From a virus, in the IMG/VR virus record IMGVR_UViG_3300031696_000032, positions 1 through 31,617 of that record: a DNA stretch of 31,617 nucleotides; one strand, written 5' to 3'. Of the stretch, positions 8,991-28,211 are shown one piece after another. Each line of letters starts with the position of its first letter. Positions within the stretch are counted from its first letter, which is position 1. The notes below the pieces were generated by a model, which searched no databases, was not told the DNA's origin, and worked only from the letters and a program-made list of their open reading frames with translations. Made by a program: the position numbers and the translations under genes.

Positions 8991-11480
8991 ATGAGTAAAT
9001 TACTACAACTACGTGGTGGCACGACTTCCGAACATTCATCTTTTACAGGTGCCTTACGTGAAGTTACTGTTGACACAACTAAAGACACTTTGGTAGTTCA
9101 TGATGGTTCTACTGCAGGGGGTTTTCCTTTACCTAGAACTGCTGCTGAGATTGTAGCTTTGATTTCTAATGATGCTATTGATAGTCAACACTATGCTGCA
9201 GGATCTATTGATCTTGAACATATGAGTGCTAACTCTGTTGACTCTGATCAGTATGTAGATGGATCTATTGATCTAGTACATATGAGTGCTAACTCTGTTG
9301 ATTCTGATCAATATGTAGATGGGTCTATTGACCTTGTTCATATGAGTGCTAACTCTGTTGATTCTGATCAATATGTAGATGGATCTATTGATCTAGTACA
9401 TATGAGTGCTAACTCAGTTGACTCTGATCAATACGTGGATGGTTCTATTGACCTTGTTCATATGAGTGCTAACTCCGTTGATTCTGATCAATACGTAGAT
9501 GGATCTATTGATCTAATACATATGAGTGCCGAATCTGTTGACGAGGACAACTTGCATATCTCTAACGCAGGTGCTAATGGACAGTACCTACAAAAACAAA
9601 CAGGGAATGCAGGTGGACTAACTTGGACGACTGTTGATCTAACAACTTTGTCTGCTGCAAGTCTTACTTCTGGCATTGTGCCTACTGCCCGTATTAACGC
9701 CTCTAGTATTGCCAATGACTTACTTGACAGCCAGCACTATGCTGCTGGTAGTATTGACACAGAGCATTTAGCTGCTGATGCAGTTACAGGTGCTAAGATT
9801 GCAGATGACGCAGTTGATAGTGAGCATATTGCAGCAGGAAGTTTGGATACGGAACACTATGCTGCAGGTTCTGTTGATACCGCAGCATTAGGTGCAGACT
9901 CTGTAACTACTGCTAAGATTGCCGACAGTGTTGCACTTGGTGGTAGTCCAACTACTACTACACAGAGTGCTGGTGATAACACAACTAAGGTAGCCACTAC
10001 AGCTTACACAGACTCTGCTATTGCCGCCCTAGCTGACACAGCCCCTGCAGCCCTTAACACGTTGAATGAACTGGCTGCTGCTCTTGGTGATGATGCCAAC
10101 TATGCAACAACTACAACTACTGCTATTGGCTTGAAAGCACCACTTGCTTCTCCCACATTTACGGGCAACATTAGTATGCCTAACGGCTCCATTGACTTGG
10201 CTATGATGAATGCTAACTCTGTCGATTCCAACCAATATGTGGACGGTTCTATTGATGCTGCTCACATTGCTGCTAACACTATCACTGCTGGACAACTAGC
10301 TGCTGACTGTGTAGGTGCAAGTGAACTAGCAAATGATTCGGTGGGTTCTGCCAATATCATTGCTAACTCTATCGCTGCCGGGGATATTGCACCAGATGCT
10401 GTTGGAGCTAGTGAATTAGCAAACAACTCTGTTTCCACTGCTAACATCATTGATGGTTCTATTGTAGGTGGTGATCTTGCTACTGGCACTATTACCGCTG
10501 CCCAATTAGCAGCTAACTCTGTTGGTGCTTCTGAGATTGCAGCAGGGGCTGTTGGTGCTTCTGAGATTGGAAATGATGTAGTTAACTCACAGCATTATGC
10601 GGCTGGTTCTATAGACAACGAACATATTGCAGATAATGCTATTAACTCAGAGCACTACGCAGATGGTTCAATTGATCGTGCTCACTTAGCTGCTGATATA
10701 ATTGATGGTACTAAAATAGCCAACGATGTTATTAACTCAGAACATTATGTTGCTGGCTCTATAGACAATGAACACATCAACACAATGGCAGCTAGTAAGC
10801 TAACAGGTGCTTTACCTGCTATTAGTGGTGCTAACCTTACAGGTGTCGATCCTTTCCCTAGTGGCACAGTGATGGTGTTTTATCAATCTGCTGCACCCAC
10901 AGGTTGGACTAAAAGCACAGCACAGAACGACAAAGCTTTACGAGTAGTCAGTGGATCAGGTGGTGGTACAGGTGGTTCACATAACTTATCTAGTCCACCA
11001 AGCACAGCTCACACGCATACAGGTGGATCACACAGTCACACAAGTGCTGCTCACACGCATGGTCAACCATCGCACACACACAGTATTGGCGCTCACAGTC
11101 ACGGTAATAACTTGTCTGCTGCTGCTCATACGCTTAGTACAGCTCAGATGCCAAGTCACGACCACCGCCAGCGTGAAATGAACTCAGGCAATCAGGATCA
11201 CTACCCATATACAGGCTTCGATGTCAGAGAGCGGGGCCAAAACCAAAAAACTTCTGCTATTGATACCTTAAACACAGGTGGTGGTAGCTCGCATAGTCAC
11301 GGTATGTCTGGTAGTGTAAGTAACTCGTCTGCGTATAACTCTGGATCTGGTGGCAACCAAACCACTAACTCAACAACTCCGGGCGCTACTGGTGCATCAG
11401 GTACACAAACTACTAGTTCGGCTGGCCCAACTGCATTTGCACCTAAGTATATTAACGTTATAATTTGCGCTAAGGACTAG
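8991..11480 (+). CDS. Tail fibre with C-terminal collar domain and HxH metal motifs
   Basis: This 829-residue protein opens with LQLRGGTTSEHSSFTGA and VHDGSTAGGFPL, the N-terminal domain seen on many phage fibre and tropism proteins. Near-identical 20-residue repeats (VDSDQYVDGSIDLVHMSA) follow at about 60-180, and related repeats run to about 600. A phage tail collar domain begins near residue 621 (PFPSGTVMVFYQSAAPTGW) and the protein ends KYINVIICAKD. Between residues 674 and 770 there are seven HxH motifs, the arrangement that binds iron in the T4 gp37 fibre tip. It is probably the receptor-binding fibre. A strong GGAGGT ribosome-binding site lies 9 bp before the ATG. Confidence 0.87.
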   Translation: MSKLLQLRGGTTSEHSSFTGALREVTVDTTKDTLVVHDGSTAGGFPLPRTAAEIVALISNDAIDSQHYAAGSIDLEHMSANSVDSDQYVDGSIDLVHMSANSVDSDQYVDGSIDLVHMSANSVDSDQYVDGSIDLVHMSANSVDSDQYVDGSIDLVHMSANSVDSDQYVDGSIDLIHMSAESVDEDNLHISNAGANGQYLQKQTGNAGGLTWTTVDLTTLSAASLTSGIVPTARINASSIANDLLDSQHYAAGSIDTEHLAADAVTGAKIADDAVDSEHIAAGSLDTEHYAAGSVDTAALGADSVTTAKIADSVALGGSPTTTTQSAGDNTTKVATTAYTDSAIAALADTAPAALNTLNELAAALGDDANYATTTTTAIGLKAPLASPTFTGNISMPNGSIDLAMMNANSVDSNQYVDGSIDAAHIAANTITAGQLAADCVGASELANDSVGSANIIANSIAAGDIAPDAVGASELANNSVSTANIIDGSIVGGDLATGTITAAQLAANSVGASEIAAGAVGASEIGNDVVNSQHYAAGSIDNEHIADNAINSEHYADGSIDRAHLAADIIDGTKIANDVINSEHYVAGSIDNEHINTMAASKLTGALPAISGANLTGVDPFPSGTVMVFYQSAAPTGWTKSTAQNDKALRVVSGSGGGTGGSHNLSSPPSTAHTHTGGSHSHTSAAHTHGQPSHTHSIGAHSHGNNLSAAAHTLSTAQMPSHDHRQREMNSGNQDHYPYTGFDVRERGQNQKTSAIDTLNTGGGSSHSHGMSGSVSNSSAYNSGSGGNQTTNSTTPGATGASGTQTTSSAGPTAFAPKYINVIICAKD
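9168..9530 (+). repeat. 60-bp tandem repeat, six units, in fibre gene
   Basis: A diverged first unit (63 bp) is followed by five near-identical 60-bp units encoding NSVDSDQYVDGSIDLVHMSA-like segments; a partial unit (ESVDEDNL) follows. The copies differ mainly at third codon positions, for example GATCTAGTA versus GACCTTGTT. Units 2, 4 and 6 resemble each other more than their neighbours in places, which may reflect expansion by pairs. Confidence 0.92.
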
Positions 11481-17068: not shown

Positions 17069-17503
17069 ATGTTTGGATTACCAATGGAAGCTATCACCAT
17101 GATAGGTAGCACCTTAGGTGGGGCAGGGTTAAAGTTGTTTGCACAAGCTCAAGCGGATAAGGCTGAGCAACAGAAGCAGCTAATGGCACGATTTGATGCA
17201 TCAGAAGGTAGCGTTGAGAGTGCAAGAGCACACCAGAATCCTAATGCTCAATGGATACGCAGGTTCCTTGTAATATCTTTTATGGGTATGGCGGCATTCA
17301 TCTTACTAGCTCCTGTACTAGGTTTTAATACTACAGTACCAATAGATGTAACAACAGGATTCAGTATATTGTTCTTTGACTTTAAGAACACTGTTACTGA
17401 GTATGTACAACTTAGTGGTATGGTAACACCAGTTTGGTTACCCCATGCAATTATGTCAGTAGTTGGTATGTACTTCGGGCAATCTATTGTAGCAAGAAAG
17501 TAA
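17069..17503 (+). CDS. Holin-like membrane protein
   Basis: The 144-residue protein has an N-terminal amphipathic helix (ITMIGSTLGGAGLKLFAQ), a charged stretch, then NPNAQWIRRFLVIS leading into a membrane helix (about residues 65-86). A second helix lies near 121-140 (VWLPHAIMSVVGMYFGQ). The NPxAQxxRR entry into the first membrane helix and the Gly-rich last helix resemble the three-helix holins of gene-transfer agents and some phages. It may make the membrane lesion for lysis. AAGGGG lies 7-12 bp before the ATG. It could instead be a non-lytic membrane protein. Confidence 0.6.
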   Translation: MFGLPMEAITMIGSTLGGAGLKLFAQAQADKAEQQKQLMARFDASEGSVESARAHQNPNAQWIRRFLVISFMGMAAFILLAPVLGFNTTVPIDVTTGFSILFFDFKNTVTEYVQLSGMVTPVWLPHAIMSVVGMYFGQSIVARK

Positions 17504-17605: not shown

Positions 17606-20600
17606 ATGCCTCAACAAGAATTCAAGGGTTATAGTGATGACCAGAAGAAGCGTATAGCTTCTAAGCTGGGGCATACGGGTGATATGGCTTCATTTGATTC
17701 CTACTTACAGAGTAACCCTGCTGCTAAGGCTAAGTTCTTTAAGTTCAAGACTGCTACTGAGCAACGCTATGCTAGAGGTGGTGCAGTTAATAAAGCTGGC
17801 TTTAGAGAGGGTGGCCTTAATGATGGTATTTCTAAAGCAGCTTATACAAGCAACCCATACAGTGATTTCTTTCCTGATACTGAAAAGCCACCTGCTATGC
17901 AGACTCAGGACATTAGAAAGTATACTGACCCATTCACTGGGGAAGAGAAGTCTGGCTCCTCTACACAGATTGATTGGATCAATTCCATGTCAAAGAAGTA
18001 TGGTGGTACATCCGGAGGTGGCTCTACAAAACCTACCCCTCCTAATGTAGTATCTAGAGAGATGCAAGGTTCTTACATACCACCTGCCGCGATGACACAA
18101 GAAGGATCCACATTAGATAATACTGCCATGAGCAGAGTCTTTGAACCCGGCTTAGCTGAAGGTACTCAGACTAAAGCTTTCAGTACTGGCTATGAATCTA
18201 ACCAAGCCGTTGATTCTTCCTCAGGTCAGGTTTCAGGGTATGACCCCTCTGCTCCTCTTACGCAGGCAGGTACTAGTACTGCGGCAGTAGGCCAAGACGG
18301 TGTATATAAAGACATCTCCACGGACACCTCAGCCTCTGCTGTTAAAGGTGTAACTGATGGTGTTAGAGGTGCTACAGGCCAAGTAACAGATACAGTACAA
18401 GCTCAGCAAGGCACTGTAACTAAAGAAGCTAAAGCAGAGACAGGTACAGCAGGTACAGTAGAAGATACAGATAAACTTAATTTCAGTGAAGGACAAAAAG
18501 TTATAGCTGCCACAGGGGAATCTACTACTTCTGAAGCACAGACTTCTGGTAATACTTTTGCAGCAACTGGTACTACCTTTGATTCAGATACACCAGAAGC
18601 TAGGGCAGCTGAAGCATATGAACTAGAGCAAGCTAAATCAGCAGAGATGGGTGAATACAAGGTAATGGATCCTGCTAAGGCTGGCACTATACCTGTAGCT
18701 GATGTGGTTCAATCTGATGCTAAGTCTGGTGTAGCTGCACAAACACGTACTATTAGTAACAAAGAGTTAGTAGATGTATCTGACTTACAGCTAGACGAGC
18801 CTGTTGCTGCTGTTGCTGCCACCATGAATGCTTTAAATGAAGAAGCTAAGATGATTGCTCAGAAGGGTACATTCTCTCAAGAGCTTGCTACAGATAGGCA
18901 AGGTGCTGTTACTGCTTCATCTACCATGCAAGGTCAGATGGAGGCATTGATGAATCAATTCAATGATGGTACTCCAGCTTGGGCTGCAGGGGCTATGCGT
19001 AACGCTACTGCTGCTATGGCCTCCCGTGGTATAGGTGCATCTTCTATGGCTGGTGCTGCCCTTGTGCAGGCGGCTATGGAATCTGCTATGCCTATTGCAC
19101 AGAATGATGCTGCAGTATTTGCTAACATGGGTATTGCTAACTTAAATAACAGACAGCAGACTTCCTTATCTAATGCAGCAGCACAACAGAATTTGTCACT
19201 TACCAATTTATCTAATGAGCAACAATCAGCACTACAGAATAGCACTAACGCTTTCTCACTGCAGACTGAAAGCTTATCCAACTTACAGTCCGTAGTACTA
19301 TCTAACCAGCAAGTAAAAGCTGCAGCTAAAGGTATGAACTTAACAGCTAAGACACAAACATCTTTAGCTAATGCGGCAAAGTATGCTGAAGTAAACAATA
19401 TTAACTTAAGTAACACACAACAGTCTAACCTTGCTAAGTCAGCAGAAAATCTTACTGTAGATATGTCAAACCTATCTAATGCCCAATCAACTGCTTTGTC
19501 AAACTTACAAGTTCGTGCTTCACTAAAGGGGCAAGAGCTAACTAATGATCAGCAGATGGCTATGATAGAGACTACTCAGAGCTTTGAAGCCGCGTCCTTT
19601 GATGCTACTACACAGCAAGCTGCCTTCATGCAAGATGCTGCTGCTGATGCAGCTATGAAAGGTCAAGTTTTATCTAATCAACAACAAGTTTCTTTATTCA
19701 ATGTATCATCTCAGTTATCTGAGAGGGAGTTAGAGTTATCTAGTGAGCAACAAACTAAGCTATACAACACAACTAACGCTATGCAAATGGATGTTACTAA
19801 CTTATCTAATAAGCAACAGACTGCACTAGCTAACGCACAGATTGATGCATCCATTAAAGGTCAAGAGTTATCTAATAAGCAGCAGACTAATGTTCTAAAT
19901 GCTTCTCGTATATCTGAGATTGCCAACATGAACTTCACGGCAGAACAAAGCAAAGCTATACAGAATAGTAATCTAGCACAGACTATGGACTTAGCTAACC
20001 TGTCTAACAAGCAAGCTACACAGCTAGCCAACGCAGCTACCACAGCTAATATGGATATGGCTAACTTAAACAATAGGCAGCAAGCTGAAGTACAGAACGC
20101 CCAGTCATTCCTTGATGTTGATATGGCTAACTTAAACAATGAACAGCAAGCTACTATGTTTAAGGCACAGTCTCGTATAAGTTCTATTATGTCTGACAAA
20201 GGTGCTGCTAATGCTACTAAGCAATTCAATGCTTCTTCTTCTATTCAGGTAGATCAGTTCTATGATAATATGGCAACTACCATGTCACAGTTCAACGCTA
20301 CACAGAAGAATGCACAAGCACAATTCAACGCAGGTGAAGCAAATGCGGTGGCTAAGTTTAATGCTGAGGTACAGAATAACAGGGATCAGTTTAACGCTAC
20401 CAATCGTATGGCAGTAGATCAGTCTAACGCTACTTGGCGTAGAGAGATAGCTACTACAGATACAGCTGCTTTGAATAGAGCTAACGAGATTAATGCTAGG
20501 GCTGCTCTTGATATATCTAACAGTGCTTACAATGATCTCTGGCAAGAACACAGGGATGAAATGGATTGGGTATATGAAATAGCAGAAGGAGATGCAGATC

Positions 20601-20731
20601 GCATGAATCAATTAGCTAGAGCCGTTATATCCGCAGAAGCTTCTAAGGCTGTCGCAGGCGCAACAGTAGATGCCGCCACCTCAACGTCCATTGGTAACTT
20701 CCTTACCAAATGGATTTTTGATGATGAATAA
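17606..20731 (+). CDS. Large internal virion/structural protein with 22- and 11-residue repeats
   Basis: The 1041-residue protein has an N-terminal part with YARGGAVNKAGFREGG (about 54-69), a Thr/Ser/Ala-rich middle (about 100-420), then MEALMNQFNDGTPAWAAGAMRN and SRGIGASSMAGAALVQAAMES (about 445-492). From residue 512 to 863 sixteen 22-residue units of NLSNxQQ type run without any insertion or deletion, and from 873 to about 982 ten 11-residue units of QFNA type follow. The C terminus reads YNDLWQEHRDEMDWVYEIAE. The same architecture is known to me from a structural protein of T4-like cyanophages. Here it lies in the internal virion protein slot of T7-like phages, so a helical ejection-core role is inferred. 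The 102-bp gap before it holds a C-rich tract but no clear promoter. Confidence 0.8.
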   Translation: MPQQEFKGYSDDQKKRIASKLGHTGDMASFDSYLQSNPAAKAKFFKFKTATEQRYARGGAVNKAGFREGGLNDGISKAAYTSNPYSDFFPDTEKPPAMQTQDIRKYTDPFTGEEKSGSSTQIDWINSMSKKYGGTSGGGSTKPTPPNVVSREMQGSYIPPAAMTQEGSTLDNTAMSRVFEPGLAEGTQTKAFSTGYESNQAVDSSSGQVSGYDPSAPLTQAGTSTAAVGQDGVYKDISTDTSASAVKGVTDGVRGATGQVTDTVQAQQGTVTKEAKAETGTAGTVEDTDKLNFSEGQKVIAATGESTTSEAQTSGNTFAATGTTFDSDTPEARAAEAYELEQAKSAEMGEYKVMDPAKAGTIPVADVVQSDAKSGVAAQTRTISNKELVDVSDLQLDEPVAAVAATMNALNEEAKMIAQKGTFSQELATDRQGAVTASSTMQGQMEALMNQFNDGTPAWAAGAMRNATAAMASRGIGASSMAGAALVQAAMESAMPIAQNDAAVFANMGIANLNNRQQTSLSNAAAQQNLSLTNLSNEQQSALQNSTNAFSLQTESLSNLQSVVLSNQQVKAAAKGMNLTAKTQTSLANAAKYAEVNNINLSNTQQSNLAKSAENLTVDMSNLSNAQSTALSNLQVRASLKGQELTNDQQMAMIETTQSFEAASFDATTQQAAFMQDAAADAAMKGQVLSNQQQVSLFNVSSQLSERELELSSEQQTKLYNTTNAMQMDVTNLSNKQQTALANAQIDASIKGQELSNKQQTNVLNASRISEIANMNFTAEQSKAIQNSNLAQTMDLANLSNKQATQLANAATTANMDMANLNNRQQAEVQNAQSFLDVDMANLNNEQQATMFKAQSRISSIMSDKGAANATKQFNASSSIQVDQFYDNMATTMSQFNATQKNAQAQFNAGEANAVAKFNAEVQNNRDQFNATNRMAVDQSNATWRREIATTDTAALNRANEINARAALDISNSAYNDLWQEHRDEMDWVYEIAEGDADRMNQLARAVISAEASKAVAGATVDAATSTSIGNFLTKWIFDDE
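19139..20194 (+). repeat. 66-bp-phase protein repeat, sixteen 22-residue units
   Basis: Units begin with NLNNRQQ, NLSNEQQ, SLSNLQS, NLTAKTQ, NLSNTQQ and so on, each exactly 22 residues after the last, through NLNNEQQ at 20129. DNA of the units is diverged; only the protein phase is strict. 22 is twice 11, the repeat of right-handed coiled coils. Confidence 0.92.
20222..20551 (+). repeat. 33-bp-phase protein repeat, ten 11-residue units
   Basis: Consecutive 11-residue units begin QFNAS, QFYDN, QFNAT, QFNAG, KFNAE, QFNAT, QSNAT, TTDTA, EINAR, NSAYN. They lie 9 residues after the 22-residue series and share its basic period. The last three units are more diverged. Confidence 0.88.
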
Positions 20732-20755: not shown

Positions 20756-20944
20756 ATGTCAAAAGAAATAAATAATATATACAAGAAAATGAATGCTCAC
20801 TTAAGTAAAAAGCCTTCAACTACATCTACTCCTAATATTGGCTTAGTTGCTAAGCGTGAATTAAAAGGAGATGACGAGATGACTATTGTAGGCTATGTTA
20901 AAAAGATACGAGATGTTAGAGGGGAATTTAATGCTTCCAAGTAA
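20756..20944 (+). CDS. Small Lys-rich protein of unknown function
   Basis: This 62-residue protein has a basic helical N terminus (KEINNIYKKMNAHLSKKP), a Thr/Ser linker, and a short strand-like C-terminal part (GDDEMTIVGYVKKIRDVRG). I do not recognise it. It starts 24 bp after the large structural protein and overlaps the next gene by 14 bp, whose ribosome-binding site GAGGGGA lies inside it. Position suggests a minor virion protein. Confidence 0.6.
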   Translation: MSKEINNIYKKMNAHLSKKPSTTSTPNIGLVAKRELKGDDEMTIVGYVKKIRDVRGEFNASK

Positions 20945-21419
20945 TGATCCACTATTAGACGCGCCTATTCCGGGTCAATCTTTAACTAAAGAACTAGGGT
21001 CTAGGGCTTGGGAGCAATCACCTAAGCTAGGTACAGTAGAAGAAGTCATAGACAAGTACCTCACATTATTTGATGACGAGGACACAGTAATTGAGTTAGT
21101 TAACCAGATGGAATCTGGATTGCCCATCTCTACTATGGTCACTGTCTTTACCAGAGGAGGAGTCATGGGAGGACTACACAGTATTGACACAGGGTTGCTA
21201 GCCTCTCCTGTATTAATTGAGATGATGATTAGTGTAGCTGAAGCAGCTGGCGTGGACTATGTAATAGGTACGGAAAATACTAAAGGCACTAAGCCCCCTA
21301 TGGGAGCCATACAAGAGTCCTTAGAGGACTTTAAATCTGATAGTACTATGGTGGAAGAAGAGATTGTAGAGGAGCCTGCAGAAGCTCCTATGGGCATGAT
21401 GGAACGGAGGGGTGTGTAA
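20931..21419 (+). CDS. Virion protein of the PIPGQSLT family
   Basis: I chose ATG 20931 because GAGGGGA lies at the right distance before it and the product then starts MLPSNDPLLDAPIPGQSLTK; an ATG at 20895 would add 12 residues without a ribosome-binding site. The 162-residue protein continues with GSRAWEQSPKLGTVEEVIDK, a helical region, SMVTVFTRGGVMGG-like and ASPVLIEMMISVAEAAG segments, and an acidic tail (EEEIVEEPAEAP). DAPIPGQSLTxExG-x-xxWExPP is a signature I recall from T4-like cyanophage structural proteins. In this phage it sits between two internal virion genes. Stop overlaps the next ATG (TAATG). Confidence 0.75.
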   Translation: MLPSNDPLLDAPIPGQSLTKELGSRAWEQSPKLGTVEEVIDKYLTLFDDEDTVIELVNQMESGLPISTMVTVFTRGGVMGGLHSIDTGLLASPVLIEMMISVAEAAGVDYVIGTENTKGTKPPMGAIQESLEDFKSDSTMVEEEIVEEPAEAPMGMMERRGV

Positions 21420-23125
21420 TGGGGTTTAGTTTAGGTAGTTTTCTAGGTGGTGCAGCAGATGCCGCATCTGAAAGTATGGACAATGCCAAGGTTGACAGGG
21501 AGAAAGAAAGAAAGAAGGTAGAAGATATGATATTCTCGACTTCTGCTAGGCTATTTGAGAATGCAAGTTCTGTACAAAAATCCCGTAGTGCAAAGAAAAA
21601 AGTTGATGATGAATTTATGAATACCCTAATTTCTTCTGCACCTTCCATGCAAAATGACCCTGCAAAACAGGCCTTTGTATTAAGTTTAGATGAAACCGCT
21701 AGAAATGATTTATTAACTATGGTTATTGATCCCTCTTTTAATGCAGAGCGGAGGCCTTTAGTAGATTACTTAGATGCTATAGACGATCCTATTGAATTTA
21801 AAGACCCCGTTACTTTGAATCAACGAGTACAGGGTAAAGTAGTAGACCGTCCTCTGGATAAGAGTTCTTACTATGGTGTGTCTAATACAGAGGATAAAGA
21901 AGTAGATAAGATTGTGTCCTCCTATACAAATTCTTTCAGTGTAGCATATGACATGTCAGCTGCTAAGGCACAGGGACTGCTGGCTAGTGCAACTAACGAA
22001 GTAAAGGTTCAGAGCTTCACTATTGATTGGGTAGTAAAGAGGCGTGATAGAGCACAAGTCGTTGCCCAGACAGCTGCACAGGTTGCTACAGCCCAGCTAG
22101 GAACGGCAAATGGAAAAATGGCTGTCACAGCATCTATGACTACTTCAGCTAATAAACAAATAGAAGCTACCCGTTTAAACTATATACGGAATAGTGGGCA
22201 AAGTGAAGAGTTGTTTGATATTCAGCCAGAAAATCAAGCTAAATTCTTAGCCTCTGCAGAATACAAGGCTGCCACTAAAGCAATCATTACATCTGCTGTC
22301 CAGCGTATGGAAGAAAACCCTGTCATAAAGGAAAGTACTGAGAGGTTCCTAGCGGATTCCTTCCCCGGTAAGTGGGGTGGACGAGTCGGTGGTAAGGATA
22401 TAGAAACTGTAGATAAACTAAAAGATAATGTTTATTACGAAGGTACTTTTACTAATGGGACGGGAATAGCTTTGGGTTCTGTAATTAAAGCTGCGGCTGC
22501 TGATGCTGGTGCAGGTTCACAAGGTAACACAGGTAGTACGGGTCAAGTTAATGTGAAAGATCAAACAATTGTATCTGAGAAAGGTTCAACATACAATAAT
22601 GGAGATGTAACTAAACCTAATAAAGTAGACGAGGGAGTTACTACACCTAAAGATACTAAAGAAATTGTACGTATGAATAATGAATTGAAAACAGCTACAG
22701 GTTCCTATAAAAAGTACCTTGAGCGTCAGCTGGGTGACGATGTAGGCTTTACTATTAAAACTACACCTAGTGAACAAGCTGACCAAGCCGTTAAGGACTT
22801 AAAGAGGCAAGGCATTGAGCTAAAAGAAACAGGGTTTGATACGTGGGAAGAACTAAAGGAATCCTTGTTAGATAATACGGTAGAAGAGAAAATAGGTGGA
22901 TTTGGTAGACGAATTAAATATGTACCTGAATCACTAAACTTACGTACCAATGAAACATCAATGGAAATTGCTATAGAAGAAGGTGATGCGGATAAGGTAC
23001 AGCAGATACTGGATAACCTACAACGTATGTCAAATGCTGGCCCATCCTTTGATATGATGAAGAAGATAGGTGGTGTACGGGGCGATGGTCTACGAGCTTT
23101 AAAGTCTTTATCACAGGATAAATAA
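21419..23125 (+). CDS. Putative internal virion protein
   Basis: The 568-residue protein starts with a Gly-rich, amphipathic segment (MGFSLGSFLGGAADAASESM) followed by a charged helix (KVDREKERKKVEDMIFS). Largely helical, charged sequence follows with an Ala/Gln-rich stretch (RAQVVAQTAAQVATAQLG, about 217-234), a flexible Gly/Thr/Ser region (about 360-400), and a helical C-terminal part. No catalytic motif is seen. Its length and position are compatible with the middle internal core protein of T7-like virions (gp15 is 747 residues), but I find no sequence signature for that. Confidence 0.65.
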   Translation: MGFSLGSFLGGAADAASESMDNAKVDREKERKKVEDMIFSTSARLFENASSVQKSRSAKKKVDDEFMNTLISSAPSMQNDPAKQAFVLSLDETARNDLLTMVIDPSFNAERRPLVDYLDAIDDPIEFKDPVTLNQRVQGKVVDRPLDKSSYYGVSNTEDKEVDKIVSSYTNSFSVAYDMSAAKAQGLLASATNEVKVQSFTIDWVVKRRDRAQVVAQTAAQVATAQLGTANGKMAVTASMTTSANKQIEATRLNYIRNSGQSEELFDIQPENQAKFLASAEYKAATKAIITSAVQRMEENPVIKESTERFLADSFPGKWGGRVGGKDIETVDKLKDNVYYEGTFTNGTGIALGSVIKAAAADAGAGSQGNTGSTGQVNVKDQTIVSEKGSTYNNGDVTKPNKVDEGVTTPKDTKEIVRMNNELKTATGSYKKYLERQLGDDVGFTIKTTPSEQADQAVKDLKRQGIELKETGFDTWEELKESLLDNTVEEKIGGFGRRIKYVPESLNLRTNETSMEIAIEEGDADKVQQILDNLQRMSNAGPSFDMMKKIGGVRGDGLRALKSLSQDK

Positions 23126-23127
23126 TA

Positions 23128-26100
23128 ATGCTAAACAAATTAGACTTTAACCTGCCTACGGATGAAGATCTTGTAGAGCAGGAGAGAGAAGAGGGTTCAT
23201 TAGGCTTTGCTCTAACGCCCTCTATGGACTCCACCGAAGATGATTACAAATTAGACTTCGCCTTGCCTGATACAACATCTGTACCCCCACCTCATATGAC
23301 TGAGCTTGAACCCTATGAAGAGGAGGACTATCTAGCACCTGTATCTAGGGATAAGGTTAAGATGCTTACCTCACTAGGGGAAGACTACAGTGTGGATAAC
23401 ATAGCAAACCATCACGGCCTAGTTCAGACTATGGAGTCCTACTTGACTAAGCGCATAGGTGAAGATGGTATTCGTAAAGAGGGTGAGACTGAGAAAGATG
23501 TAGTAGAGAGATTCCTTACACATATGCGATTTGTTGAAGGTAACACTATTGACACTATGCAAGAGGTAGACTTTTTAAAGGATGAAAAGACTAGTCAACA
23601 AACTAAAGACAACTTTAATATCCTATATACTATGTACCAAGAGATGCCCAACTTTGCTTCTGAAGGTGGTGGTGGATTCTGGTCAGGTGCTAGTGATGTA
23701 CTAACGGCTGCTGTATTTGATCCTGCTACTGCAGTAGGTCTAGGCTTTGGTGGCCCCATAGGTTCTGTTGTTACACAGGCTGTGAAGCAGGCAGGTAAGG
23801 GGGCAGCTACAAGGGCTATATTAGCTACCGCATTGAAGGGTAACCTTGGCAAGATTACTGCTATGACTTCAGTAGAGGGTCTGCTTGGTGCTATGAGTGA
23901 ATCACAGCGTCAGGAAGTTAAACTTGAAGTAGGCATGATGGCCTCTAAAGATTGGAAGGCTATTGGTGCAGCAGGCGCATTAGGTGGGGTGGGTTCTTTA
24001 ATTGGATTCCCACTAGGCATCTCAGCTGCTAAGAAAGGCCTTGCTTCTGCTGGCTTACGTTCAGGTGATCAAGTATTAGCAGATCGCATTAACTCTAAGG
24101 TAACTCGTTCAGGTCGTAACCCTGAAACCCCTGAGGAGATAGCTAACTTTGACCCTATTACGGGTGGTACGTTTGATAGAGAGGGTGCTGAACGCATTCG
24201 GGATGCCCTGTCCATGCCGGACGCCCCGTTTACTCCTCAGATAATGGATGACATTACTAGGGTAAGCACGATAGCTGTTGGAAACCTTATGAAGGATATG
24301 CCACAGAAGTATTTCCAAGATGAAGGAGAGAAAATATCAGATACGGTAATGAGAATTTTAGGAAACTCTGGTGATATAGACGAGGATGTATTAGAGAGAG
24401 CCTTAACTACGACAGGTCTAAACATGGAGGAGTTCTCCCAGTTAGAGAGGCTTACAACAAGTGACGCTGGTAAAACATTGCAACATTACAGTGCATTGAA
24501 ACGGAAAATAAATGTGATGGCAGGTAACAACCCTGAACTCAAGAAGAAGTTAAGGGAAATTTATGGTGAGGGGGATAAAACACGTAGCGTATTCGGTACA
24601 TTCACTGGCTTTGTTAAACGGTTAGATCGTGAGACACGGGCAATGATGGTGTCACAGCTATCCACCACAGCCCGTAACGTAATCTCTGCAGGTGCCTTCC
24701 TTACCTTTGGTGCTGCATCTAAGGCTATAGAGAGTACAATATACCATGCTGCTAGGGGCGTGTCTTCTGCCTTAGGGGGCAATGCTTCTATTCAAGGGAC
24801 TAAGAAGGGTATGCTTGAGATAGGAGAGGATGCATTTAGTACTCTGGGGCAGATGGTTACACCTAAGCAGAACAAGGCATTAGCTGACATGCTACTAAAG
24901 AATAACTCTAGGCTATCCAATACACTATTCCGAACTATGCAAGAGACAGGTGACCAAGATCTAAGTCGTGTTACTAAATGGATGAATGGTTTGAACATGG
25001 CACAAGATCAAGTAATCCGTTCAGGTGTTTTCACTGACAGTGTTAACAGGCAGATGAAGAAGCTTGACTTGGATATGTATGATTACATTGCTAACCATAA
25101 GCCTATTCCAATTGAGGTATTAAAGAAGGGTACTGATGATGCACTAGAAGCTACCTTTGCGAAGATGCCAGAGGCTGGGTTAGCTCGTAAATTCGTAGAG
25201 TTTGTAGAGAGTATGCCACTAGTTCCTGTAATAGGTACACACCAGTTCCCGTTTGCACGATTCATGGCAGACGCAATGTTATTCCAATACAAGTACAGCC
25301 CATTGAACTTCCTTAATGCTGCCAGTGTAGGCATACAAGGTGGGGCAAAAACTATCAAAGCTACTAGGGCATTAGCCTCAGGCACTTTGGATAAGAAAGG
25401 CAAGGCTATGGCAGAATCCGCATTAGTACAGGGTAAGAAGGGTGTAGCGGAATCTGTAGAACGTATCTCTAAAGGTACAGTAGGTAGTGCAGCCCTATAT
25501 GCAGCTTACTTATATCGGGACGAGAATCAAAACTCTGCTTGGTACAACATGAATGATACTAACGAGAACAATAAACCTGTAGATATACGTGCTGTATTCC
25601 CTATGGCACCTTACTTGGCAGTTGCTGACTTACTTGTTAAATGGAAGAATGGAGATTTGGATAGTTCCGAACCTGCAGGACAACTAATGGCAGGTATAGC
25701 AGGTAGCCAGTGGAAGCCTTCACGGGTGCAAGACTTTGTAGGGGATTTATTTGAAACACTAGTTGATGCAGATACCGACACAGTTACTGGGGAGAAGATA
25801 GGTGCTATCTTAGGTGACTGGGCTGGTTCAGTAGCTGGCAGGCCTTTCACTGCAGCACAGATTGGTAGAGATATATACTCTGCCTTTGATGATACTGAAG
25901 CTATTGTACGTGAAACACGGATGGTGAAGGGTGAGGGTATGCAAGAGGTTATGACTAACTCATTCCTGAATCACCTAAAGTCTAAGGTTCCTGTATGGCA
26001 GAGAGACTTACCTGAGTACAGGTCACCTACTACAGGTGGCACAGTACGTAGGCAGAGTGCTGCAATGGCACAGTTCAGTGGTATTAAATACCTTCCTGCA

Positions 26101-26541
26101 CTATCCGAGGTAGAGACAGAGTTGGCTAGGCAGGGTATTGAATCCTATACCATAGTACCTAAGACAGGTAACAAGCAAGCAGACTACTATGCTAAAAAGA
26201 GTATGCCACCTTATGTGAACATGTTACTTAGTAGTACCATTGTATCCCCGTGGTATAAGTCTCAGCCTAAGTTTAAGCAGAGACTAATTATAAAAGGGCA
26301 AATAAACGAAGCAAAGAAGATAGCTAAGATGGTAGGTGAAGGTGAGGCATCCTTAGATGCTATGCGTAATGGAGAAGGATACACTACCTATGATAAAGGT
26401 AAGTGGGCTAAGACACCAAAGGAATCTAGGAAATTAGCAAATGAATACTTTATGAATAACTATGGTAAGACTGTAGAAGAAATGGGTGCCTTTGCAGCTG
26501 GTGCTAAGATTGGCAGAGCATTAGCAGGGGTGTATAAGTAA
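23128..26541 (+). CDS. Large putative internal virion/ejection protein
   Basis: The 1137-residue protein begins acidic (LDFNLPTDEDLVEQEREEGS). It then has Gly/Ala-rich hydrophobic stretches that could insert into a membrane: about 183-215 (AVFDPATAVGLGFGGPIG), 278-305 (AIGAAGALGGVGSLIGFPLG) and 516-535 (NVISAGAFLTFGAASK). Long helical regions fill the rest, including SMPLVPVIGTHQFPFARF around 690-710. It ends with a basic part (GKWAKTPKESRKLANEYF). Size and place match T7 gp16, which spans the host envelope during DNA entry, but no transglycosylase motif is evident; a lysozyme domain is in the next gene instead. Stop overlaps the next ATG (TAATG at 26539-26543). Confidence 0.68.
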   Translation: MLNKLDFNLPTDEDLVEQEREEGSLGFALTPSMDSTEDDYKLDFALPDTTSVPPPHMTELEPYEEEDYLAPVSRDKVKMLTSLGEDYSVDNIANHHGLVQTMESYLTKRIGEDGIRKEGETEKDVVERFLTHMRFVEGNTIDTMQEVDFLKDEKTSQQTKDNFNILYTMYQEMPNFASEGGGGFWSGASDVLTAAVFDPATAVGLGFGGPIGSVVTQAVKQAGKGAATRAILATALKGNLGKITAMTSVEGLLGAMSESQRQEVKLEVGMMASKDWKAIGAAGALGGVGSLIGFPLGISAAKKGLASAGLRSGDQVLADRINSKVTRSGRNPETPEEIANFDPITGGTFDREGAERIRDALSMPDAPFTPQIMDDITRVSTIAVGNLMKDMPQKYFQDEGEKISDTVMRILGNSGDIDEDVLERALTTTGLNMEEFSQLERLTTSDAGKTLQHYSALKRKINVMAGNNPELKKKLREIYGEGDKTRSVFGTFTGFVKRLDRETRAMMVSQLSTTARNVISAGAFLTFGAASKAIESTIYHAARGVSSALGGNASIQGTKKGMLEIGEDAFSTLGQMVTPKQNKALADMLLKNNSRLSNTLFRTMQETGDQDLSRVTKWMNGLNMAQDQVIRSGVFTDSVNRQMKKLDLDMYDYIANHKPIPIEVLKKGTDDALEATFAKMPEAGLARKFVEFVESMPLVPVIGTHQFPFARFMADAMLFQYKYSPLNFLNAASVGIQGGAKTIKATRALASGTLDKKGKAMAESALVQGKKGVAESVERISKGTVGSAALYAAYLYRDENQNSAWYNMNDTNENNKPVDIRAVFPMAPYLAVADLLVKWKNGDLDSSEPAGQLMAGIAGSQWKPSRVQDFVGDLFETLVDADTDTVTGEKIGAILGDWAGSVAGRPFTAAQIGRDIYSAFDDTEAIVRETRMVKGEGMQEVMTNSFLNHLKSKVPVWQRDLPEYRSPTTGGTVRRQSAAMAQFSGIKYLPALSEVETELARQGIESYTIVPKTGNKQADYYAKKSMPPYVNMLLSSTIVSPWYKSQPKFKQRLIIKGQINEAKKIAKMVGEGEASLDAMRNGEGYTTYDKGKWAKTPKESRKLANEYFMNNYGKTVEEMGAFAAGAKIGRALAGVYK

Positions 26542-28211
26542 TGGGGATAATGTCACAGAAGGTAATTGAAGATGAAGCACTTAGCATGGATACTCCTACT
26601 GACTTCACTCTCAGTGGTGGCTTACCCGAAGAGAAGTCCACTTGGGAAGATGTTGTTAGTCGAGGCAAGGGCCGAGTAGATGATGCGGTGCAGTATGGGA
26701 CAAACCTTGTTGAAAAAGGGGCTGATATGGCCCTTAGTGCAGGCAAGGATATTGCGGAAGATGTTATTGAGTACGGAGCAGATGCGCTAGGGTTTGGGCC
26801 GGAGAAACAAATCTCTATTACGCAAGAGGCAGTACTCCTTACAAATGAAATGGTGGATGCTGGATTAATACCGCAACGATACAGAATGCAAATGTTACTG
26901 CCTGAGGTCGGAGTAACGGTGACTAGGGAAAACATTAGTATTGATGGAGAGGACGACAGTGTATTCAATGCTGTGAACCATGCTCTATTCTCCTATGAGG
27001 CAGGGCAGAGTAAGGTTACTGCTGTAGCTAGCCAAGCCAAAGAAGTATATCAGGGTGTAAGTAAGAAGCTAAGTGGGTTAGACCCTAAGACTGAATACCT
27101 TGATTACTTTAACAATAAGTTCGGGTTTAACTTGGCAGAGCAGGGGTTGAGTCGGGAAGAAGCTAAGAATGCTATCATGGATTCTATTGGAAATATAGAC
27201 CAGAAAGGTGCAAGTGGTAAGCTCAGTCGGGGTGAGCCGCTTGTTGGGGGTGAAGTGTTAGCTATTAATCAAGACAATATAGAGTATGGCTTTGCCGCAG
27301 GAGGACTTGTAGCTAATGAAGAACTTAATGTGGATACCCTTAGTGGCTACTCTCTCAGTGGTGGCTTACCCAAAGCAGTCACCCCTGTTGAAGGGGATGA
27401 TACGGCTGCATTGAATGCTGCTATTACAGCTATGCGTAAGGAAGAAGCTAAGGGGTCGGAGCCTACCTTCTATGATATGGATGATCAGGACTTCCCAGAG
27501 GAGTATGCAGCACCTACCCCTACTACTGCTATTACCCAGACAGAAGAAGCTCTTGTAGCGTCTACTGTGGCGCGAGAGGGGGATAGAGGGCTGTCTATAG
27601 GCTCAGTTAACACCGTAGATGAAGCAGTAACCAATGCTGTGTATACAACTGTACAGATGGCAGAGAATGGAGTCCGTTCAGGCTGGAGTAAAGACACTAG
27701 GAAATGGTTACCGCATGACTCTGCTGAAGGTGGTACACCTACTATAGCGTATGGTCACAAGTTTGCTACACAAGCGGAAGCAGATGCCGTTACTGCAAGT
27801 GGGGGCATAACTGAAGCCAAGGCTATTGAGTGGTTCAACGAGGACATGGGTACTGCAAAGGATAGGGCTAAGAGTCAGTATGAAGCAGAGTATACTAATA
27901 AAGAGTGGAAGGACTTAGACGTATTGGGTAAGCTAATGCTTACAGAGGTTGTGTTTAACATCGGTACATTGAAGGATGATGCAGGTGAATACGGGTGGCC
28001 TAGCTTGACTACTGCAATACATGATAAGGACTTCAGTGTAGCTAAGGATCAGTTATCCCGTACATACACTAAGCCTGATGGCACTGTAGAGTCTCTTGTG
28101 AATAGGACAACTGCGTTACAGGGTATATATGAAAAGGTTATACCATTAACTGATTGGACTATAGAACCCAAGCCTGTTGACCTAACTGACTGGGACAATA
28201 TGATAAACTAA
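26541..28211 (+). CDS. Virion protein with C-terminal lysozyme-like domain
   Basis: The 556-residue product has a helical N-terminal part, a middle part with FAAGGLVANEE (251-261), two related segments FTLSGGLPEE (22-31) and YSLSGGLPKA (270-279), an acidic linker, and a C-terminal domain from about 350. That domain has MAENGVRSGWSKD, then PHDSAEGGTPTIAYGHKF, matching the E...D...TIGYGH pattern of GH24 phage lysozymes. Candidate residues are E375, D393 and T401, with a longer E-to-D distance than in T4 lysozyme (18 versus 9). LTEVVFNIG near 467-475 fits the second-lobe helix of such enzymes. It likely cuts peptidoglycan during DNA entry; a role in lysis is possible since no separate endolysin is visible in the window. 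Confidence 0.75.
   Translation: MGIMSQKVIEDEALSMDTPTDFTLSGGLPEEKSTWEDVVSRGKGRVDDAVQYGTNLVEKGADMALSAGKDIAEDVIEYGADALGFGPEKQISITQEAVLLTNEMVDAGLIPQRYRMQMLLPEVGVTVTRENISIDGEDDSVFNAVNHALFSYEAGQSKVTAVASQAKEVYQGVSKKLSGLDPKTEYLDYFNNKFGFNLAEQGLSREEAKNAIMDSIGNIDQKGASGKLSRGEPLVGGEVLAINQDNIEYGFAAGGLVANEELNVDTLSGYSLSGGLPKAVTPVEGDDTAALNAAITAMRKEEAKGSEPTFYDMDDQDFPEEYAAPTPTTAITQTEEALVASTVAREGDRGLSIGSVNTVDEAVTNAVYTTVQMAENGVRSGWSKDTRKWLPHDSAEGGTPTIAYGHKFATQAEADAVTASGGITEAKAIEWFNEDMGTAKDRAKSQYEAEYTNKEWKDLDVLGKLMLTEVVFNIGTLKDDAGEYGWPSLTTAIHDKDFSVAKDQLSRTYTKPDGTVESLVNRTTALQGIYEKVIPLTDWTIEPKPVDLTDWDNMIN

Follow-up and report, generated by a model that had tools for sequence, protein, structure and literature searches.

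The protein described here, encoded by a putative member or close relative of the HMO-2011-type podoviruses, contains an array of 22-residue units with a repeat hierarchy of 11 < 22 < 110 residues (5 x 22), and across its homologs the length of this array keeps an 11-residue phase and usually changes by whole steps of 110 residues. The 110-residue super-repeat is a level beyond the 22- and 11-residue repeats that a sequence-only reading of the same DNA had picked out. Our working interpretation, held tentatively and with a chance close to even of being right, is that this is an internal virion protein, the product of the first gene of an HMO-2011-type ejection cassette, with a modular rod of predicted helix-turn units. 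It is a large protein of abundant marine phages that has no assigned function, and the quantised array offers a direct experimental handle on it.

A gap-free 22-residue array in an orphan phage protein

The window, by which we mean the whole of virus record IMGVR_UViG_3300031696_000032, is 31,617 nt (31.6 kb) long. By gene order and best relatives (Puniceispirillum phage HMO-2011, Roseobacter CRP phages, Pelagibacter HTVC phages, Sinorhizobium phiM6, Vibrio CHOED and Aeromonas MQM1), its virus is placed among or near the HMO-2011-type podoviruses, short-tailed phages that are regarded as belonging to the most abundant and most widely distributed viral groups in the sea (PMC9038755). The repeat protein (Table 1) has all the hallmarks of the HMO-2011-type repeat protein family: the domain upstream of the array, the 22-residue array itself, a C-terminal part with the QFNA motif, and a gene that lies before a three-gene cassette. 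Searches of Pfam and PHROGs left the window protein without a family, with scattered hits in relatives only and mostly in the variable N-terminal part; a PDB sequence search returned a single marginal, unrelated hit, and no clear transmembrane segment was found in the protein. The family is an orphan one. HMO-2011 gp25, CRP-1 gp35, CHOED gp13 and phiM6 gp25 belong to it and share the gene position, are annotated only as hypothetical, and have arrays of 6, 6, 2 and 3 units, respectively, shorter than the 16 units of the window protein. The domain directly before the array carries the motifs PAWAAGAMR...ARGLGASSMAG...ESALPIA and, depending on the relative, begins anywhere from residue 93 to residue 874.

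Table 1. Layout of the repeat protein gene and of the three genes that follow it in the window.
Feature	Position (nt)	Strand	Remarks
Repeat protein gene	17606..20731	+	1041 aa; homolog of HMO-2011 gp25 (phage1322_25)
Residues 1-58, small N-terminal helical domain	17606..17779	+	Common to many relatives; AlphaFold2 pLDDT ~93 over most of it; phmmer matches to relatives' N-termini
Residues 60-435, linker, predicted mostly disordered	17783..18910	+	AlphaFold2 pLDDT mostly <50; length and content hypervariable among relatives
Residues 436-511, most conserved domain, directly before array	18911..19138	+	Invariant alignment columns; HMM anchor
Residues 512-863, sixteen 22-residue units	19139..20194	+	Most units predicted as one ~16-residue helix and a turn
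Super-repeat block 1, units 1-5, 110 residues	19139..19468	+	Unit identity peaks at 5-unit lags
Super-repeat block 2, units 6-10	19469..19798	+	Unit identity peaks at 5-unit lags
Block 3 and closing unit, units 11-16	19799..20194	+	Six-unit core, the entire array in most relatives
Residues 864-872, 9-residue joint	20195..20221	+	Array end at constant distance from conserved NAxW motif
Residues 873-949, seven clear 11-residue units (QFNA motif)	20222..20452	+	Predicted long helix
Residues 950-982, three weak 11-residue units	20453..20551	+	By inspection
174-residue neighbour	20895..21419	+	Same place in relatives
568-residue neighbour, gp15-like by position only	21419..23125	+	About 290-1020 aa in relatives
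1137-residue neighbour, gp16-like by position	23128..26541	+	Two relatives match PHROG 6651 'internal virion protein'

The sixteen 22-residue units that had been reported from the sequence alone for residues 512-863 proved exact in their coordinates, and all sixteen align in register without a gap. Self-identity over these residues reaches 0.276 for a lag of 22 and 0.247 for a lag of 44, far above shuffled sequences (99th percentile of the best lag, 0.16); over residues 864-990 it is 0.216-0.234 at lags 11, 22, 33 and 44, the corresponding 99th percentile after shuffling being 0.20. The same reading had counted ten 11-residue units after a 9-residue joint; by eye, seven of them are clear, and the three at the end, from which the QFNA motif is gone, are weak.

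N, Q, S and T make up 47% of the array and charged residues just 13%; in each 22-mer, positions 2 and 10 are hydrophobic and nearly invariant. Apolipoprotein 22-mers (2 x 11) and synuclein 11-mers have periods like that of the window array, and a membrane-lying amphipathic helix of their kind had been put forward for it. On composition such a helix is unlikely, as the array, in contrast to those proteins, combines few charges and many polar residues with a lack of proline and has no evident lipid-binding face. Nor does its hydrophobic moment stand out: at 3.67 residues it is 0.132, under the shuffled 99th percentile of 0.14.

Array length is quantised across homologs

We measured the array between the two conserved flanking domains, used as HMM anchors, in 161 distinct homologs. 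Its length is a multiple of 11 residues in every one of the 161 and a multiple of 22 in 158, which upholds the earlier suggestion that the period is under constraint. The lengths found were 44, 66, 88, 121, 132, 154, 198, 242, 308, 352, 418, 462, 572 and 682 residues, that is, from 2 to 31 units, a roughly 15-fold range. A main series of 6, 11, 16, 21, 26 and 31 units takes in 139 of the 161 homologs, and in a second series of 9, 14 and 19 units (HTVC104P (L089) and L266, 9 each; L263, 14; L265, 19) the step is again five. Because unit numbers fall in these two series, the usual step is 110 residues; lengths of 2, 3, 4, 5.5 and 7 units occur as well. Three homologs (L003, L071 and L075) that appeared to be exceptions to the step were errors of the downstream-HMM projection, and reading their units restored it. 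Beyond the array, the distance from its end to the NAxW motif is 75 residues in 93 of the 95 sequences in which the motif was found; in the two remaining sequences it is shifted by -11 and +44.

In a tree of 96 sequences built from the flanks only, 26 changes of unit number are required, with the caveat that, since phages recombine, the flanks may not share the history of the array. All six-unit rows had formed one clade in an earlier tree, and this wider tree breaks that clade. Longer arrays tend to go with longer N-terminal parts (rho 0.50, uncorrected for kinship); array length shows no clear correlation with that of the gp15-position neighbour (rho -0.18, P 0.05) or the gp16-position neighbour (rho 0.01). 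The idea that the array is a ruler for the neighbouring proteins was dropped for lack of a clear correlation between the lengths.

A super-repeat of five units

When unit identity was computed by lag in arrays of at least 11 units, the mean peaked at 0.391 for units five apart and stood at 0.365 for units ten apart, with most other lags at 0.26-0.34 and lags 3, 8 and 13 intermediate (0.33-0.34). The excess identity at multiples of five units is 0.082, compared to a maximum of 0.017 in 200 shuffled trials. By reading, the five unit types terminate in GK/GQ, NNI, GK, NDI and VDMA. At the DNA level, similarity within long arrays peaks at a lag of 330 bp, reaching 0.81 over 200 bp, and the adjacent 330-bp blocks 3 and 4 of homolog L009 are 78% identical, the outcome of a comparatively recent whole-block duplication. 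Given this peak and the L009 duplication, recombination contributes to the 110-residue step; at the same time, since evolution mainly gains and loses five units together, the array has the look of a genuine modular unit of construction.

Predicted fold of the array

In a set of 650 distinct units, 97% have S, T, D or N at the third position of the 22-mer, proline is absent, and 127 of the 207 glycines lie at position 21, near the unit end. The residues at positions 3 and 21 would fit a helix N-cap and C-cap in every unit. AlphaFold2 predicted a helix of ~16 residues followed by a turn for most 22-mers, both in the full-length protein and in the array alone, where the run used 60 gap-free in-phase sequences and gave a pTM of 0.64; between array residues 50 and 250, most pLDDT values were 80-93. 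The fifth helix of each block is shorter in these models, and the final units of the array have low confidence in both runs. Both were runs on monomers, for which a compact fold may be invented for a polar repeat. Residues 879-1038, in the 11-residue part, are predicted as long helices with moderate pLDDT, and this part may form a long helix. The sequence-only reading had envisaged one continuous helix of about 470 residues; the predictions agree that the protein is helical, and because of the predicted helix-turn units and the N-cap/C-cap pattern a single helix of that length is not supported for the 22-mer array.

Fold searches gave no PDB match at E<=0.001, and a predicted homolog in BFVD superimposes on the model with a TM of 0.83. 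VIA-align 2 returned IE1 and five-helix domains of the cyclin-box/TFIIB type over array residues 67-177 with Z of 4-6.3, a likeness that we rejected as lying within the background for helical models. What bears on a comparison with alpha-solenoids and other helical repeats is the helix-turn units of the AlphaFold2 models, at the pTM given above, and a VIA Z of at most 6.3.

Gene neighbourhood

In relatives, too, the repeat gene lies ahead of these three genes, from which one or two additional genes sometimes separate it. In relatives whose cassette was read through, the three downstream proteins have ~140-210, ~290-1020 and ~800-1700 residues, ranges that depend in part on the size filter applied. 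The repeat gene is a member of a cassette ending in a very large protein with internal-virion-like relatives, and it adjoins these internal-virion-like genes rather than lying within the tail-fibre cluster. Podovirus ejection genes form small operons of this sort (PMC8954989). When the repeat protein and the neighbouring proteins were compared with T7 gp13-16 and P22 gp26/14/7/20/16 (hmmsearch, hhalign), no significant match emerged, and the literature searched yielded no virion proteomics for any family member.

We also note several other genes in the window. Just upstream of the repeat gene, positions 17069-17503 encode a protein of 144 residues that has a strong transmembrane segment and is possibly a holin; a lysozyme, an endolysin or a gene annotated as holin lies nearby in some relatives. 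Directly after the gp16-position gene, positions 26541-28211 encode a 556-residue protein that has a C-terminal phage lysozyme domain and contains the motif TLSGGLP/SLSGGLP twice; few of the relatives listed have a gene of this size at the same spot. A tail fibre with an N-terminal Mtd_N domain is encoded at positions 8991-11480.

Possible roles of the repeat protein

From the gene neighbours we infer that the protein is located in the virion and acts in ejection. Docking to the particle and to partner proteins would then fall to two parts, the conserved domain that precedes the array and the conserved helix of 11-residue units at the C terminus, with a modular helical rod between them. Each 22-residue unit of the rod would contribute one helix and turn, and five units would make one module; a rod whose length changes mostly by whole 330-bp modules would leave the flanking domains and the 11-residue phase in an unchanged relation. 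Against this reading count the absence of significant matches to the T7 and P22 ejection proteins, of a clear transmembrane segment in the repeat protein and of a clear scaling of array length with the neighbours. A more specific proposal, that five single-helix units form a 110-residue module gained or lost whole in order to preserve the rotational relation of the docking domains of an ejection protein, giving an adjustable element of 132 + 110k residues, strikes us as rather doubtful. If the five units did turn out to be a structural module, they would provide an example from nature of a helical repeat with quantised length, and would hint at how DNA is delivered by short-tailed marine phages. 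The step of five may instead be an effect of recombination, with unequal crossover between duplicated 330-bp blocks and without any structural need for five, an explanation that is compatible with any role of the protein and that the 330-bp similarity peak and the L009 pair make a substantial possibility, if somewhat short of even. It has to contend, however, with a 1+5k phase that persists through deep divergence and many changes, even where blocks share only 40-50% DNA identity, and with an 11-residue phase that is never lost, including in the two C-terminal changes described above.

As to the role itself, the main rival to an internal virion protein is a surface fibre or appendage anchored to the particle by its C-terminal part, with the array as an adjustable stalk and the variable N-terminal half facing outward. 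The fifteen-fold range of the array in whole units would suit a stalk, and the hypervariability of the N-terminal half, with adhesin-type or calcium-binding matches (DUF4214, RTX, EF-hand-like) in some relatives, would suit an exposed part; moreover, the phi29 head fibre gp8.5 is a virion protein whose stem is a repeating helix-turn-helix (PMC6542822), although that stem is short, belongs to a capsid-surface trimer with N-terminal beta-barrels, and is absent among the fold-search matches listed. We nevertheless consider a fibre unlikely, as the gene lies outside the tail-fibre cluster, both ends of the protein are conserved with no variable terminal tip found, and the EF-hand and dockerin matches fall under curated cut-offs. 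Still less probable is the proposal of the sequence-only reading, a continuous right-handed (hendecad) coiled coil whose oligomers would make up a long rod or tube: the 11-residue period, the hydrophobic positions 2 and 10 and the long helices predicted for the C-terminal 11-mers fit it, but the near-universal N-cap residue, the gathering of glycine at one position and the breaks in most units of both AlphaFold2 models, predictions as these are, all count against it for the 22-mer array. The accompanying idea of a conduit for DNA ejection survives in part, in that a place among internal or ejection proteins is plausible from gene order and the PHROG 6651 matches; a conduit of defined, envelope-matched length is argued against by arrays of 44-682 residues in related phages of Gram-negative hosts. 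Least probable of all, in our view, is a non-virion or assembly role, for instance as a chaperone or scaffold that groups the ejection proteins during head assembly, which would agree with the low hydrophobicity and the predicted disorder in the N-terminal third, whereas the size, constant position and conservation of the protein would be unusual for an assembly factor and nothing supports the role positively.

Comparison with known systems

Tape measure proteins have a variable number of 11-residue units with the aromatic markers W/F (PMC3271669), and the repeat protein resembles them in its F-marked (QFNA) 11-mers and in the C-terminal spacing that differs by multiples of 11 in two relatives. 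It differs in belonging to a podovirus without a long tail, in a main unit of 22 residues with a 110-residue step, and in a predicted helix-turn fold, and no sequence link is shown. The T7 proteins gp14, gp15 and gp16 and DEV gp72 and gp73 are likewise helical and likewise come from a cassette with one very large protein (PMC8954989, PMC10925440); the window cassette, however, has four genes, and no mention of such a repeat was found for T7 or DEV. The repeat was not found described in PMC9038755, PMC6918029, PMC6256558 or PMC10410586, and no description of the 11 < 22 < 110 hierarchy with quantised length was found in the literature searched.

Individual relatives show further features. Within the variable N-terminal part, DUF4214 scores above Pfam cut-offs at residues 88-133 of L002 and 94-137 of L006; an RTX calcium-binding repeat does so at residues 249-274 of L054, and L011 has EF-hand and dockerin matches below the cut-offs. 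A distant match with 11-residue repeats of the QFNAGQQN type, which may be a low-complexity resemblance, lies at 7581-9086 of L271, from a Brevundimonas albigilva chromosome, perhaps in a prophage. Finally, the homolog at 8179-10770 of L094 (MW202701.1) is annotated in GenBank as 'huntingtin', apparently through an automatic match to a helical-repeat protein.
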